NCBI GenBank assembly: GCA_013360295.1
Contig: JABWCL010000007.1
Location: 1 to 64,000, forward strand
Length of the DNA: 64,000 bases
Direction of reading: 5' to 3'
Source of the DNA: Ignavibacteriaceae bacterium
Lineage (GTDB): Bacteria > Bacteroidota > Ignavibacteria > Ignavibacteriales > Ignavibacteriaceae
Shown: piece after piece, positions 3,780 through 9,141 of the stretch
Position numbering within the stretch: the stretch's first letter is position 1
Layout: every line of letters begins with the position of its first letter
Notes under the pieces: model-generated
What the model was told of the DNA's origin: nothing
The model's input: only the letters and a program-made list of their open reading frames with translations
Database searches by the model: none
Program-made: the position numbers and the translations under genes

Positions 3780-5060
3780 ATGTTTAAAGTTCTAGTTATA
3801 GCATATTACTTCCCGCCAAAGGGCTTGAGCGGCGTACAGCGAACGCTCAAATTCGTAAAGTATTTTAATAAATACAATTGGTTCCCTACGGTTGTCACCT
3901 CCGGAGAAGGTGCTTATTACGCACACGACAACACTCTCCTTGACGACCTTGAACCGGGAACATACAAACTTCATCGGGTTGAAGGTAAAGATATTAATTC
4001 GTTAACCAAACAATTAGGTACTGTCAGAATGCCCAATGAAGTGCTGCGGAAGATATTTTCTTTTTTCAGCAGTTTTTTCTTTATACCTGACAATAAAAAA
4101 TACTGGTCGAAAAAAGTCCTCAATTATTGTCGGGAATTACTGAAAAATGAAGAGTTTGACGTCATTTTTATTTCAGGTCCGCCGTTTTCTTCATTCGAAA
4201 CCGGCAGAGCGCTCAAAAAGGAATTTAATATTCCTCTGGTCTATGATTACAGGGATTTATGGTATGGGTACCACTTTGCTATTTATCCGACGATTTTTCA
4301 TCGGTTAATGATAAAGAGGATGGAATACCGGTGTCTCAAAAAAGCGGACCGGATAATAGTAACTAACAGGAAAATTAAAGAAAAGCTCGTGAAATTTTTT
4401 CCGTTCCTCGGCTTAAACAGCATCTCGATTATACCCCACGGTTTCGATCCTCAGGATATTACGGCAGCAGGAAAGCACCCAAAGGATCGTGAAAAATTGA
4501 TTTTTACTTATAGTGGTATTTTTTATGAGTTTATAACACCCAAGTATTTTTTGAAGGCATTCAAATTATTAACACAGGAAAATCCTGAAATTGCATCCAG
4601 GATCGAACTGCATTTCGCCGGATTATTGAGGAAAGAGAATGAAAAACTGATTGAGTCCCTCAAATTACAGTCTTATGTCAGATATTTTGGATATCTGGAC
4701 CATCTTGATGCAATTAAAAAATTGAATAGCAGTGATGTACTTTGGATTACGGTAGGGGAAGGCAGAAATTCTGATACCATTTCAAGTGGAAAGTTATTCG
4801 AATATTTTGGTACAGGGAAACCCGTTTTAGGATTATTAAGAGAAGGAGCTTTAAAATCTGCACTTGAAGAGTATGGATCTTCTTTTATTTGTGACCCATA
4901 TGATGTAAGAGGAATAAAGGATAAGTTTGTGGAAATTTTCTTGCTATATTCTCAAAATGCTTTACCGGCCCCCAAATCAGAGGTTATAGCCAAATATAAC
5001 CGTGAATACTTAACTGAAATCTTAACGAAAGAATTGCAATTTTTAGTGAAGGTCAGGTAA
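3780..5060 (+). CDS. Glycosyltransferase, GT4-like (GT-B fold)
   Basis: A 426-residue GT-B enzyme that should transfer a sugar from a nucleotide donor to an acceptor, likely a cell-surface glycan. The N-terminal Rossmann domain starts with VLVIAYYFPPKGLSGVQR, typical of GT4-type proteins, and the C-terminal donor-binding domain contains SGKLFEYFGTGKPVLGL, matching the usual E-x-x-A-x-G-x-P-V region. No signal peptide is seen; such enzymes are cytoplasmic or peripheral. ATG 3780 immediately follows the peptidase stop codon, and the gene ends in TAATG, overlapping purD by one base. No other glycan genes adjoin it, so donor and acceptor are unknown. Confidence 0.82.
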   Translation: MFKVLVIAYYFPPKGLSGVQRTLKFVKYFNKYNWFPTVVTSGEGAYYAHDNTLLDDLEPGTYKLHRVEGKDINSLTKQLGTVRMPNEVLRKIFSFFSSFFFIPDNKKYWSKKVLNYCRELLKNEEFDVIFISGPPFSSFETGRALKKEFNIPLVYDYRDLWYGYHFAIYPTIFHRLMIKRMEYRCLKKADRIIVTNRKIKEKLVKFFPFLGLNSISIIPHGFDPQDITAAGKHPKDREKLIFTYSGIFYEFITPKYFLKAFKLLTQENPEIASRIELHFAGLLRKENEKLIESLKLQSYVRYFGYLDHLDAIKKLNSSDVLWITVGEGRNSDTISSGKLFEYFGTGKPVLGLLREGALKSALEEYGSSFICDPYDVRGIKDKFVEIFLLYSQNALPAPKSEVIAKYNREYLTEILTKELQFLVKVR

Positions 5061-6334
5061 TGAAGGTAGGTATAATTGGCAGCGGAGGACGGGAGCACGC
5101 ATTAGCTCTAAAGTTATTTAACTCATACTCCTGCGATAAGGTATATTGTTTCCCCGGAAACCCGGGCACAGCAAGTTTCGCAAAAAATCTTAATGTATCG
5201 CCGGAAGATTTTGAGAAGTTGGCAGAGACCATCATTTTGAATGGAATTGATTTTGTGGTAATCGGTCCCGAAAAACATCTTAGTGATGGTTTAACTGATT
5301 ACCTGCAAACTAAAGGAATTAAAGTATTTGGCCCGACAAGCGCCGCCGCGAGGATTGAATCAGACAAGGCTTTTGCAAAACAATTGATGCTTTCTTATAA
5401 GATTCCAACAGCCTCGTTTCGGACATTCACCGCAGATCAGCACTCAGCAGCGTTAGAATTCTGTAACAAAATTGGTTATCCCTCCGTGATCAAGGCAAGT
5501 GGTCTGGCGGCTGGAAAAGGGGTAGTTATTGCAAATAATCCTAATGAAGCGAAATCTGCTATAGACAGCATGTTCTTTGAAAAGATGTTTGGTGAGTCGG
5601 GCGAAACCATTGTTGTAGAAGAGTTTATGACAGGTCTTGAAGCCTCGGTTTTTGCAATCTGCGACGGCAATAACTTCGTATTGTTACCTCCGGCACAGGA
5701 TCACAAACGAATCGGAGATAATGATACCGGGAAAAATACTGGTGGTATGGGTGCCTATGCTCCCGCAAAAATCGTTACTAAAGCACATCTGCAGAAAATA
5801 GAAGAACAGATTGTATCTCCGGTATTAAAGGCATTATCTGATAAAGGTTCTAAATTCGTAGGATGTTTATTCTGCGGTTTAATGATTGAAGGTGACGTAG
5901 TCAGAGTCGTTGAGTTTAATGCCAGATTTGGTGATCCTGAAACACAAGCGATATTGAACCTTTTAGAGGGTGACTTCTGCGAATTATTGTACTCTTGCGC
6001 AACCGGTGAATTAAAAAACAGAACTATCACGATTAACGGTAATGCATCAGTTTGTGTTATAGCAGCCTCAGGCGGTTATCCGGATAAATTTAATAAAGGC
6101 TTTGAAATTAAGGGATTAGATCGGGTTTCTTCAGATATTTATGTCTTTCATTCAGGCACTGCTTTGAAGGATGATAAAATAATCAGTAACGGGGGACGTG
6201 TTCTGGGGGTGACCAGTGTTGATTCAACGGGGAACCTGAAATCTGCAATCGAAATGGCGTACGAAGCAATTTCGAAGATTTCTTTTGATAAGATGTATTA
6301 TCGTAAAGATATAGGATCTAAGGGATTAAATTGA
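5060..6334 (+). CDS. purD: Phosphoribosylamine-glycine ligase (GAR synthetase)
   Basis: This ATP-grasp enzyme (424 residues) joins glycine to 5-phosphoribosylamine, the second step of de novo purine synthesis, using the product of PurF (encoded at 38244-39734). It opens with KVGIIGSGGREHALALKL, the PurD N-terminal motif. The ATP-grasp core includes VIKASGLAAGKGVVIA (about 144-159), the signature RFGDPETQA, and a C-terminal domain ending near KDIG. Length is typical for a monofunctional PurD. It overlaps the glycosyltransferase stop by one base (TAATG). Confidence 0.97.
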   Translation: MKVGIIGSGGREHALALKLFNSYSCDKVYCFPGNPGTASFAKNLNVSPEDFEKLAETIILNGIDFVVIGPEKHLSDGLTDYLQTKGIKVFGPTSAAARIESDKAFAKQLMLSYKIPTASFRTFTADQHSAALEFCNKIGYPSVIKASGLAAGKGVVIANNPNEAKSAIDSMFFEKMFGESGETIVVEEFMTGLEASVFAICDGNNFVLLPPAQDHKRIGDNDTGKNTGGMGAYAPAKIVTKAHLQKIEEQIVSPVLKALSDKGSKFVGCLFCGLMIEGDVVRVVEFNARFGDPETQAILNLLEGDFCELLYSCATGELKNRTITINGNASVCVIAASGGYPDKFNKGFEIKGLDRVSSDIYVFHSGTALKDDKIISNGGRVLGVTSVDSTGNLKSAIEMAYEAISKISFDKMYYRKDIGSKGLN

Positions 6335-6341
6335 CGGGATA

Positions 6342-7943
6342 ATGAATTCTCTCCATATCCACTCCAATTACTCAATGCTTTCGGGGGGAGCATCGGTCAA
6401 AGAACTGTGCGATAAACAATATACACATGGATATTCCTCAATAGGCCTCACCGACACCGATGGGATGTACGGATACGTGGAATTAAATAAAATTTCCAAA
6501 GAAAAGAAGCTAAAGCCTGTTTTTGGCGTCCAGCTGACCTCCGGTACCGAAGGGAAAGAGAGTTATTTAATTGTAATCGCACGTAACTTATCTGGATATA
6601 AAGAATTATGTTCGCTCATCACAAGCAGAAAGTTAAAAGATGATTTTTCACTAAAGACCGTCGTTACCGAAACAAGTAAAAATCTTACCTACATTACTCC
6701 CGATCCTGAATTGCTCCTGCTTAATGTCGGAGCACATAACATCTACGCCGAAATTAGAGCAAGTAAGTATAAAACACATCAGAATAAACATTTAATGAAT
6801 CTGATTCAGAGTTCAGGTGGTAATTACATTCTTACAAGTCCGGTCTTTTTTCTGGAAAAGGAGGACTATATTTTTCATAAAGTGCTTACTGCGATCCGGT
6901 TAAGAAAAACAGTTGACAATCTAAACGAAAACGAGGTAGTACCGGAGGATTACTATCTTAAGTCACCCAGAGAAACCAGGGATTGGGTTGCCTCATACCA
7001 GGAAGGGTATCTCAATTCAGAACAAGTACTTAGAGATTCCGTTTTCGAACCGCAGATGGGTAATTATGTGTTCCCGAAATTTTCATTACCACCCGGTGAG
7101 GATGCGTTCTCATTTTTATGGAGGATTACATTTAATGGGTTTGAAAAAAAGGTTAAAGATCCGACCGGGGAGCAAATTAAGAGACTGAGTTACGAACTTG
7201 AAGTTATTGCCGATCTTGGTTTTATAGATTATTTTCTGGTCGTTTGGGATATTGTCAGAGAAGCAAAAACCAGAGGAGTACAGGTGATCGGAAGGGGTTC
7301 TGCGGCAAACAGTCTGGTCGCCTATGCTCTGGATCTTGTAGATTTAAACCCCACGGAGCACGATTTATATTTCGAAAGATTTCTGAACCGCGGACGGATC
7401 AGCCCTCCCGACGTTGACCTGGATTTTTCCTGGAAAGAGCGCGATGAGATGATAAAATATGTCTTTAAAAAATACGGCTATCACCGTGTTGCAATGATCT
7501 CCACTACCGTAACTTTTCGGGCGCGGTCAGCATTCAGGGAAACTGCCAAGGCTTACGGTATTTCGGACCAGGAAATCTCAAAGTATAGTAAATTCATTCC
7601 CTGGACAAATGCAGCAAATTTACAGAATATTACCACCTTATTTCCTGAATCAAAAAATCTGCCTTTTAGAAATGAACCATGGGCTAGTATTATAAAAATT
7701 GCTTCCCGCCTGGCAGATACACCCAGATTTTTGGGCATTCATCCCGGAGGTATTGTAATTGCCCCGGAGAAGATCACCGATCATACGGCTCTCCAGTATT
7801 CGGGTAATAAAGGATTGGGGATAATTGTGACACAGCCTGACATGTACTCAATTGAAGATCTTGGACTTATAAAAATTGACCTCCTAAGCCAGCGCTCCCT
7901 GGGTGTTTTAAGAGATACCCTGCAGAAAATCAGAAAAAGGTAA
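6342..7943 (+). CDS. C-terminally short DnaE-family protein (PHP, palm and thumb only)
   Basis: Related to the alpha subunit of DNA polymerase III but only 533 residues, about half the family's usual 950-1200. An N-terminal PHP domain (about 1-200) starts LHIHSNYSMLSGG; its second metal motif is GLTDTD instead of the usual TDH. The palm has IGRGSAANSLVAYAL (316-330) and PPDVDLDF with Asp357 and Asp359, the two catalytic aspartates. A thumb region follows, then the second palm segment HPGGIVIAPEKITD and GLIKIDLLSQRSL carrying Asp513, the third catalytic aspartate. The protein ends 20 residues later, where the fingers should start; fingers, helix-hairpin-helix, OB and tau-binding regions are all absent. 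All three acidic residues remain, so this does not look like random decay. It lies seven bases before dinB, so a joint role in translesion synthesis or its control is inferred; catalysis without fingers is doubtful. Confidence 0.85.
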   Translation: MNSLHIHSNYSMLSGGASVKELCDKQYTHGYSSIGLTDTDGMYGYVELNKISKEKKLKPVFGVQLTSGTEGKESYLIVIARNLSGYKELCSLITSRKLKDDFSLKTVVTETSKNLTYITPDPELLLLNVGAHNIYAEIRASKYKTHQNKHLMNLIQSSGGNYILTSPVFFLEKEDYIFHKVLTAIRLRKTVDNLNENEVVPEDYYLKSPRETRDWVASYQEGYLNSEQVLRDSVFEPQMGNYVFPKFSLPPGEDAFSFLWRITFNGFEKKVKDPTGEQIKRLSYELEVIADLGFIDYFLVVWDIVREAKTRGVQVIGRGSAANSLVAYALDLVDLNPTEHDLYFERFLNRGRISPPDVDLDFSWKERDEMIKYVFKKYGYHRVAMISTTVTFRARSAFRETAKAYGISDQEISKYSKFIPWTNAANLQNITTLFPESKNLPFRNEPWASIIKIASRLADTPRFLGIHPGGIVIAPEKITDHTALQYSGNKGLGIIVTQPDMYSIEDLGLIKIDLLSQRSLGVLRDTLQKIRKR

Positions 7944-7950
7944 GGGCAAT

Positions 7951-9141
7951 TTGGCAGTTATTTTTCATTTGGATTTAGATTCATTTTTTGTAGCAGTTGA
8001 AAGAATACTTAATCCTGAGTTAATAGGAAAAGCTGTCATTGTTGGTGGGAATCCCACAGGGCGGGGTGTCGTTGCAGCATGTTCATACGAGGCGAGGAAA
8101 TATGGCCTACAGTCAGGAATGCCGATCAGACAGGCTTATCAACTTTGCCCCAAAGGAATGTACGTGCACGGACATTATGAAGAATATGAAAGATATTCGG
8201 ATCTGGTCCGTCAGATACTCTCTGCTCACACTCCGCACCTTGAACAAGCTTCTATTGATGAGTTTTATATGGATTTCTCTTTACCCGCACTTACGCTGTT
8301 CGGATTACTCAATAAATCACTTGAAATAAAATCCCAATTACAAAATGAACTGGACCTGCCTTGTTCAATTGGTATAGCGCCAAATAAACTATTGGCAAAG
8401 ATCTGTTCTGATTTTAACAAACCAAATGGTATGACAATCGTTGTTGAAGGGAAAGAAAGAGAATTCCTTGAGACCATGCCCATCAAATTTATGCCAGGTA
8501 TCGGACCTGTTCTTCAAAAAGATTTGACTGATAAGGGAATAAAATTCATTGGCGATATTTGTCGTATGCCTGTAGAGTTCTTCACTGGAAGATATGGAAA
8601 AGTGGGGCTTGATTTATGGAAAAAAGCTCACGGTGAGGGTTCAACTTTAATATTCGGCCACCCTGAACAAAAAAGTATTTCAAAGGAGACAACTTTTCAG
8701 AAAGACATTCTGTCAATTGAAGCATTAGAAGAAGTCTTGCTGGCTCTGGTTGGGCGTGTTTCTCATAAGCTAAGGGATGATTGTCTTACTGCATCAACCA
8801 TTACTTTGAAACTACGCTATTCTGACTTCGTAACTTTAAGCCGTTCAAAGACAATAGCGCCTACCCAGGATGATTTTATTATTTATAATATCGCACGCGG
8901 ACTGCTGCGAACTGCTTTTAAAAGAAGGATAGGTGTAAGGCTTATCGGAATAAAACTTGAAAAATTCAATAAACCTTACTTTCAGGATTATCTCTTTGAA
9001 CCTGAGAGCAGTAAAAGAGAGAAGCTCTTCGATGCAATCGGACGGATCAGATTAAAACATGGTTATGACGCGATTAATATTGGAGCATCCAAAAATACTC
9101 CCGGCGCTAAAGGGAAAATCAGCCAGGAGGCCAGTTCATAG
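7951..9141 (+). CDS. dinB: Y-family DNA polymerase IV
   Basis: A complete 396-residue translesion polymerase without proofreading. Catalytic residues are Asp8 (HLDLDSFF) and Asp103-Glu104 (SIDEFYMD). The palm, fingers and thumb are followed by a little finger domain. QDYLF near the C-terminus fits the Q-x-x-L-F beta-clamp binding motif, so it should load on the clamp by itself. The start is TTG at 7951 after the purine-rich GGTAAGGG that also carries the preceding stop codon, seven bases after the DnaE-like gene; the two are certainly cotranscribed. The 3' end overlaps the opposing HIT gene by 23 bases. Confidence 0.95.
   Translation: MAVIFHLDLDSFFVAVERILNPELIGKAVIVGGNPTGRGVVAACSYEARKYGLQSGMPIRQAYQLCPKGMYVHGHYEEYERYSDLVRQILSAHTPHLEQASIDEFYMDFSLPALTLFGLLNKSLEIKSQLQNELDLPCSIGIAPNKLLAKICSDFNKPNGMTIVVEGKEREFLETMPIKFMPGIGPVLQKDLTDKGIKFIGDICRMPVEFFTGRYGKVGLDLWKKAHGEGSTLIFGHPEQKSISKETTFQKDILSIEALEEVLLALVGRVSHKLRDDCLTASTITLKLRYSDFVTLSRSKTIAPTQDDFIIYNIARGLLRTAFKRRIGVRLIGIKLEKFNKPYFQDYLFEPESSKREKLFDAIGRIRLKHGYDAINIGASKNTPGAKGKISQEASS

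Follow-up and report, generated by a model that had tools for sequence, protein, structure and literature searches.

Polymerases of the C family, the bacterial replicases, are treated as one-chain enzymes. Split family-B polymerases, with the core over two chains, are found in some archaea; they belong to another polymerase family and are split differently. In the C family, the DnaE of cyanobacteria is divided by an intein, as covered in part of PMC3919608. Among the mutasomes, the mycobacterial one is the subject of PMC10421592, as its relevant part indicates, and a putative DnaE2B-PolY-RecA mutasome of Bacteroidetes is treated in sections of PMC12926913 and PMC6511836 (Cellulophaga algicola).

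The present locus lies in a 64,000-nucleotide (nt) stretch of DNA from an Ignavibacteriaceae bacterium, here called the window. It carries a gene for the N-terminal half of a DnaE-like polymerase (the N-half), followed directly by dinB, and the C-terminal half (the C-half) is encoded by a separate gene elsewhere in the genome. The pair, judged from sequence, probably forms an intein-less two-subunit polymerase of the C family, which assembles across the palm/fingers border and acts with DinB and RecA in translesion synthesis.

Two genes tile one DnaE

The features of the two halves are as follows.

6342 to 7943, plus strand: dnaE N-half gene, 533 amino acids (aa), ATG start; degenerate PHP, palm and thumb with three catalytic Asp (open reading frame, Pfam, profile, alignment, structure model)
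7410 to 7418, plus strand: codons of catalytic Asp357 (7410-7412) and Asp359 (7416-7418), in PPDVDLDF
7878 to 7880, plus strand: codon of the third catalytic Asp, Asp513, in KIDLLSQR (sequence, alignment)
7884 to 7943, plus strand: split point, in the final palm helix of the N-half, from where the C-half gene continues (junction alignment; N-half profile up to Taq 638, C-half profile from Taq 643)
G000:C92:34397-36100 (the same as L063:8398-10101; outside the window), minus strand: C-half gene, 567-aa open reading frame (ORF) with no stops

A Pfam scan of the 533-aa protein gives PHP at residues 4–102 (expect value, E, 3e-18) and DNA_pol3_alpha at 259–515 (E 4e-76), and no other family. The protein ends 20 residues beyond Asp513; after its TAA stop come the 7 nt GGGCAAT and then, at 7951, dinB with a TTG start. 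An earlier sequence-only reading had described a 533-residue DnaE relative with PHP, thumb and palm and with Asp357, Asp359 and Asp513, ending about 20 residues past the third Asp, with dinB seven bases on, and the numbers checked are correct. It had also stated that there is no frameshifted remainder. None follows the stop, but the remainder does exist, as a separate gene on another contig.

Separate ORFs matching the C-terminal half of full-length DnaE were found in 9 of the first 60 loci, some on the opposite strand and some preceding the short gene. Searching the window genome with one of them gave a match on contig C92 (E 4e-210), while the N-half gene is on contig C89. The sequence-only reading had listed half of a split polymerase with its fingers encoded elsewhere among its options, and the fingers/HhH/OB gene that it advised seeking in the same genome is this one. 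The C-half matches the Pfam families finger (E 9e-36) and HHH_6 (E 3e-22), both above the cut-offs, and its OB match (E 6e-6, 26.6 bits) is slightly below the Pfam cut-off of 27. Profile alignments to solved structures place the N-half on Thermus DnaE residues 8–638 and the C-half on residues 643–1121, with zero overlap. The DnaE domain order of PHP, palm-thumb, fingers, HhH and OB is complete over the two genes, with OB just under its cut-off. The profile match of the C-half extends as far as Taq 1121 (E. coli 1057), and no C-terminal domain follows the OB, which is a DnaE2 trait. Alignment with full-length relatives puts the break in the helix after the third Asp. The sole other palm-domain match in the window genome is DnaE1, in an open frame of 1156 aa.

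Residue counts and trees cover 31 genomes having both halves, and the trees comprise sequences of this class only. Left out of the 31 were L038, L046 and L050, with no full C-half; L056 and L059, with a partial N-half; G066, G011, G031 and G060, with pieces; and G058, whose C-half coordinates equal those of G135. The N-half tails run 17–49 residues past the third Asp, and the C-half heads 45–86 residues ahead of GCFYIE (30 of 31 parsed in each case). N tail and C head together measure 63–126 residues in 29 split pairs, against about 49 in 11 full-length relatives. The split pairs therefore have surplus sequence at the break, mainly on the C-half, the lengths being upper bounds because the earliest possible start codon was assumed.

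Near the N-terminus of the C-halves there is a recurring pattern around LIDMxxYxLP (consensus), which is missing in the full-length relatives. Three C-halves of family f12 have a shorter N-terminal stretch, with 45–50 residues before GCFYIE as against 60–86. A short stretch ending in LF is present in 30 of the 31 C-halves, near the SLF site of the genome's own DnaE1; in the window genome it reads QYDLF (aa 375–379). It was considered as a clamp motif of the C-half and is only a weak lead, with a first residue that is mostly not Gln and close full-length relatives that do not have the stretch.

Conservation, selection and trees

The three palm Asp are present in 31 of 31 split rows, and the sites of Asp357, Asp359 and Asp513 are also kept in 15 of 15 full-length rows. 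The latter are one DnaE1, two sequences grouping as DnaE2 and 12 close relatives, L018 being the interrupted one. Of the 51 N-half positions invariant in the full-length rows, 45 are kept in at least 90% of the split rows and 35 in all, and the retained positions include the three Asp and the GRGS motif. The C-half has 47 such invariant positions, 45 kept in at least 90% of the split rows and 37 in all.

Both halves are under purifying selection. The ratio of nonsynonymous to synonymous substitution rates (dN/dS), from our own script for the Nei-Gojobori method (NG86), is 0.056–0.106 in 7 N-half pairs and 0.052–0.137 in 8 C-half pairs, values that are rough because dS is high. For the window genes against their nearest relative, dS is saturated for the N-half and dinB, and the C-half pair gives a dN/dS of 0.066. 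The sequence-only reading, which proposed that dN/dS be measured, saw in the short gene a selected form instead of decay; the N-half ratios, the unbroken set of palm Asp and the occurrence across the order and in f12 agree with it.

The own C-half is 86% identical to that of G119 (L124), and the own N-half and DinB are 71% each. The N-half and DinB thus evolve at a similar pace, faster than the C-half.

In both trees the split rows fall on one side of a branch, with support values from the Shimodaira-Hasegawa-like approximate likelihood ratio test (SH-aLRT) of 94 for the N-half and 79 for the C-half. The two trees agree in 15 of 28 bipartitions. This agreement, together with the correlation of distances considered below, shows joint inheritance of the halves, not contact between them.

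Distribution and gene arrangement

A contig search found 28 relatives of the N-half, 26 of which are ORFs of 529–561 aa. The remaining two are partial: L059, where the contig end cuts the gene, and L056, a 311-aa ORF. None is full-length. The sequence-only reading had suggested a search for short DnaE homologues in related genomes, and had named a full-length DnaE at this locus in the relatives as the finding that would speak for a single deletion; none of the 28 loci has one. Full-length relatives of the clade occur in other families of the class. In 25 of the 28 genomes behind these loci most of the C-half is encoded separately, truncated by the contig end in G140 and with a stop close to the start in G137. 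One further genome has a contig-end fragment, and no C-half was found in G132 and G136.

The split form is spread over the order and also occurs in f12, a family of the same class outside this order. In a class sample of 119 genomes, a separate N-half was found in 13 and a separate C-half in the same 13, several as pieces. G106 of the class sample has a C-half without an N-half; since this C-half is only 628 b from the contig end, absence of the N-half there is not shown. A census of 96 genomes of the order found, among the matches listed, the N-half in 66 and the C-half in 68, with both in 63, the N-half only in 3, the C-half only in 5 and neither in 25. Fisher's test for co-occurrence over these matches gives p 5e-15, a value that overstates independence because the genomes are related. 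The census and the distance tallies take one place per genome, and pieces and contig-end matches count as present (for example, G202, G192, G227 and G220 for the N-half; G066, G149 and G214 for the C-half). Some genomes are present under two handles, namely G058/G135 and, by like coordinates, G169/G136 and G195/G119.

In 21 genomes, among the matches listed, the two halves lie within 5 kb of each other: 12 pairs are divergent, 4 tandem with N before C, 3 convergent and 2 tandem with C before N. In six further pairs the halves share a contig and are separated, by its coordinates, by 40 kb to 3.3 Mb; the remaining pairs are on different contigs. The shuffled gene order therefore excludes readthrough, frameshifting and sequencing error as a general source of one chain.

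Two loci have the halves almost in line. In L018 (G081:C70), from another family, the N and C parts keep their places and a single in-frame TAG separates them at the same split point, the junction being near 1477–1504; this may be a split at an early stage or a nonsense mutation that arose by chance. In G164 the N and C matches are 2 nt apart.

The gene on the other side of the N-half in the window is the following.

5060 to 6334, plus strand: purD-like gene, immediately upstream of the N-half with a 7-nt gap

By its sequence this gene looks like purD. Many related loci have a relative of it (cluster c1) in the same position, immediately before the N-half.

Linkage to a Y-family polymerase

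The features of the downstream gene are these.

7951 to 9141, plus strand: dinB, Y-family polymerase, 396 aa, TTG start, HLDLD and SIDE motifs intact
8983 to 8997, plus strand: putative clamp-binding motif QDYLF of DinB, aa 345-349 (from the sequence, by the consensus QxxLF)
9013 to 9084, plus strand: C-terminal stretch of DinB, aa 355-378, that resembles the RecA N-terminus (RecA-NT-like; by-eye comparison with the genome's own RecA)

DinB has the IMS, HhH and IMS_C domains with their catalytic acidic residues, scores 292 bits against NCBIfam PRK02406 (cut-off 256) and is the only Y-family match found in the window genome. The clamp-motif consensus is given in the relevant part of PMC12926913, and a RecA-NT-like motif is described in that of PMC6511836.

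Of the 71 half-bearing genomes in the order sample, 28 have a listed Y-family gene no more than 5 kb from an N-half or C-half. All 28 listed genes are on the N-half strand, 23 upstream and 5 downstream. By our estimate (10 kb of about 4 Mb), such a neighbour is expected by chance in well under one genome. Y-family genes of at least 147 bits, a cut picked after seeing the data, were listed for 64 of the 71 genomes with a half versus 7 of the 25 without. Within the order, again among the matches listed, the high-scoring Y-family kind seems to go mostly with the split polymerase, and a lower-scoring, mostly longer kind to be mostly without it. We read ten Y-family proteins, eight from near a split half and two from beside a full-length relative. 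HLD(L/M)D, S(I/V)DE and QxxLF are present in all ten, and by eye the stretch past QxxLF resembles the RecA N-terminus in most of them.

Full-length relatives of family f11 also sit with DinB at some loci, and the Y-family tie may for that reason predate the split. In L136 the order is DinB-DUF72-DnaE, all in one direction (DUF72 gene at L136:10677-11378), and L137 has the same layout with a like-sized middle gene, which was not scanned. In G113 a 207-aa gene (L140:9103-9726) with an NYN domain, of nuclease type, separates dinB from the C-half gene. A gene of like size in G106 (L138:8670-9275), unscanned, truncated at the contig end and at least 201 aa long, adjoins the C-half.

Structure models

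The N-half model (m50894cddf248) has a mean predicted local distance difference test score (pLDDT) of 75.6 and aligns with E. coli DnaE (2hqa) with a Z of 29.9 and a root mean square deviation (rmsd) of 3.6 over 506 residues. The C-half model has a mean pLDDT of 75.7 and aligns with M. tuberculosis DNA polymerase III alpha (7pu7) with a Z of 20.3 and an rmsd of 5.0 over 483 residues; its residues 522–567 are of low confidence. Each model matches DnaE chains in the PDB. The structures were aligned by VIA-align, and the tiling of the halves rests on the sequence profiles because the VIA-align chain ranges of the two models overlap.

Proposed mechanism

The computation shows two separate genes with complementary domains, inherited jointly, kept by purifying selection and linked to dinB; physical assembly, polymerase activity, a complex with DinB, RecA and the clamp, and a translesion role are inferred. 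In the proposed two-subunit polymerase, the N-half, made up of an inactive PHP, a thumb and a palm that holds the three metal-binding Asp, would join non-covalently with the C-half of fingers, HhH and OB, and the joining across the palm/fingers border would rebuild one active site. In DnaE structures the palm supplies the catalytic metals, the fingers contact the incoming nucleotide and the template, and the HhH/OB part holds both duplex and single-stranded DNA; the halves would divide these tasks in the same way. The surplus N-terminal sequence of the C-half is a possible docking element. The rebuilt enzyme would be an accessory, non-proofreading polymerase that extends primers alongside DnaE1. 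DinB would most likely recruit the halves to the clamp and to RecA through its clamp motif and RecA-NT-like motif, and the complex would most likely be one of the DnaE2B-PolY-RecA type, linked to RecA and active in translesion synthesis.

A bolder version, which we put forward tentatively and with some doubt, is that the two subunits are obligate partners assembled on demand. The palm half would come from the purine-gene/DinB operon and the fingers half from a distant, separately controlled gene, and they would unite only at damaged forks on a RecA/DinB/clamp platform. The split would then be the safety switch of a mutagenic polymerase.

Several observations weigh against an assembled polymerase. 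G132 (L046, CP070637.1), a single-contig chromosome of 2.8 Mb, has an N-half with intact palm motifs, and the assemblies G136 (the same as G169), G167 and G202 have an N-half as well; no C-half was found in any of these four, also at E up to 10. The C-half alone was listed for 5 of the 96 order genomes, some perhaps because of contig ends. These may be real exceptions or assembly gaps, and a second, single-half function is possible. No Y-family gene is within 5 kb in 43 of the 71 half-bearing genomes, and none was found in 6 of the 71, among the matches listed. In the trees, the support of 79 for a single C-half clade is weak, the f12 C-halves are at an open fork, and long branches are flagged for both halves. 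N and C patristic distances correlate moderately (r 0.54), as their common species history would lead one to expect, and most N and C dS values exceed 1. Finally, the N-half model is poor at residues 461–533 (block mean pLDDT 33–55), which is the proposed interface. A partner-dependent interface would be in keeping with this low confidence, but a thin alignment accounts for it too.

Alternative explanations

The halves might no longer be one polymerase at all, the N-half serving as a scaffold or regulator of DinB and the C-half as a separate DNA-binding factor. The genomes with a single half would suit such a division, as would the 28 genomes with a listed Y-family neighbour, some of which, the window genome included, have the other half on a different contig. 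A scaffold should not need the metal-binding Asp that all 31 N-halves keep, nor a DNA-binding factor the 45 of 47 full-length-invariant positions kept in at least 90% of the C-halves, and both halves were listed for 63 of the 71 genomes having either. We consider this explanation unlikely. The sequence-only reading had offered a partner or regulator of DinB as one option; the link to DinB is real, and a non-polymerase role is not needed to account for it. The same reading had also named a nuclease, and an N-half acting as a PHP nuclease or phosphatase for DinB would explain why the PHP fold is retained, with the first His pair in 27 of 31 and 30 of 31 split rows and Asp38 in 31 of 31. Some of the nine residues that make up the published motif HHDHEH[C/H]DH were mapped by way of the own DnaE1, and in all 31 split rows four of them have given way to other residues: the His that follows Asp38, the Glu after that, and the last Asp and His. 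With these four mapped ligand positions gone the metal site is degenerate, a DnaE2 trait; loss of PHP metal-site positions in DnaE2 is reported in the relevant part of PMC12926913. A nuclease role is disfavoured by this loss of metal ligands, and we rate the active PHP enzyme as very improbable.

A trans-splicing split intein of the cyanobacterial style would also make one DnaE from two genes, and by size the 45–86 residues before GCFYIE in the C-halves could hide a short C-part of an intein. The N-half tails of 17–49 residues are too short for an intein N-part, and no intein family appeared when two halves of each kind were scanned against Pfam. The split point also differs from that of cyanobacterial DnaE. 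The intein was rejected on the tail lengths and the scans, and is in our judgement exceedingly improbable. Decay of a broken DnaE2 gene, or an assembly artefact, would find its best cases in the single in-frame TAG of G081, in the matches 2 nt apart in G164 and in the few census matches that contain a stop. Against it stand the same architecture across the order and in f12, dN/dS far below 1, the shuffled gene order and the surplus sequence at the break. Decay, including a single deletion, was discarded on dN/dS and the census, and the chance left to it is negligible.

Comparison with known systems

Against NCBIfam PRK05672, the error-prone (DnaE2) family with a cut-off of 939 bits, the halves score 327 and 247 and cannot reach the cut-off; three nearest full-length relatives that were scanned score 595–617, the DnaE2-like L029 of the class 866 and the own DnaE1 (over 1067 of its residues) 620. 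NCBIfam does not assign the pair to DnaE1 or to DnaE2, and the label "DnaE2 proper" is not supported. The nearest full-length relatives are a clade of the class (L016, L017, L019-L028; L030, L031) with 34–41% identity over the matched part. Unlike the pair, they are one chain, of 1028–1065 aa where complete. L030 and L031 also adjoin a Y-family gene with both catalytic motifs. In L133 and L134 a C25-peptidase gene adjoins the full-length DnaE.

The cyanobacterial split-intein DnaE shares with the present pair that one DnaE comes from two genes. Here no intein was found, the split is at the palm/fingers border, and the enzyme would be accessory, not replicative. The pair departs from the single catalytic polypeptide of the C family, separate N and C matches being listed for 63 of 96 genomes of the order. 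Literature searches, judged by titles and abstract openings, showed no description of an intein-less split polymerase of the C family. The relevant part of PMC3919608 gives one Ignavibacteria genome as DnaE1 plus DnaE2, and this DnaE2 may or may not be the split pair; fragmentary polymerases were reconstructed or removed in that survey. The stem 'ignavibacter' is absent from the main text of PMC12926913, and its relevant parts make no mention of a split DnaE. Real enzymes can go unnoticed in surveys that drop or rejoin 'truncated' or fragmentary polymerases, such steps being described in the relevant parts of PMC12926913 and PMC3919608. If the two-subunit polymerase is real, a C-family active site can be built from two proteins, with a widely conserved, intein-less palm/fingers split; the pair would be a natural separation-of-function tool for the C family, and the split form would join the list of mutasomes.

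The ImuA-ImuB-DnaE2 mutasome likewise combines a DnaE-type and a Y-family-type partner, thought to act at the clamp. In the present system the Y-family partner keeps its catalytic motifs and the DnaE is split. An inactive, ImuB-type partner was rejected, the only Y-family match of the genome being dinB with its active-site motifs. A PF00154 search of the window genome gave one match, the RecA gene; no ImuA-specific search was made, and a diverged ImuA could escape this one. A canonical imuA-imuB operon was not seen around the full-length relatives at the loci looked at.

The DnaE2B-PolY-RecA putative mutasome, as presented in the relevant parts of PMC12926913 and PMC6511836, is closer. Both systems have an accessory DnaE with a degenerate PHP and an active Y-family polymerase, and in both the Y-family partner has clamp and RecA-NT-like motifs, the latter recognised here by eye only. 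They differ in that the nearest full-length relatives of the present pair fall below the error-prone cut-off of NCBIfam, and in that the DnaE here consists of two proteins from two genes. The best reading of the pair is a split version of this published type.

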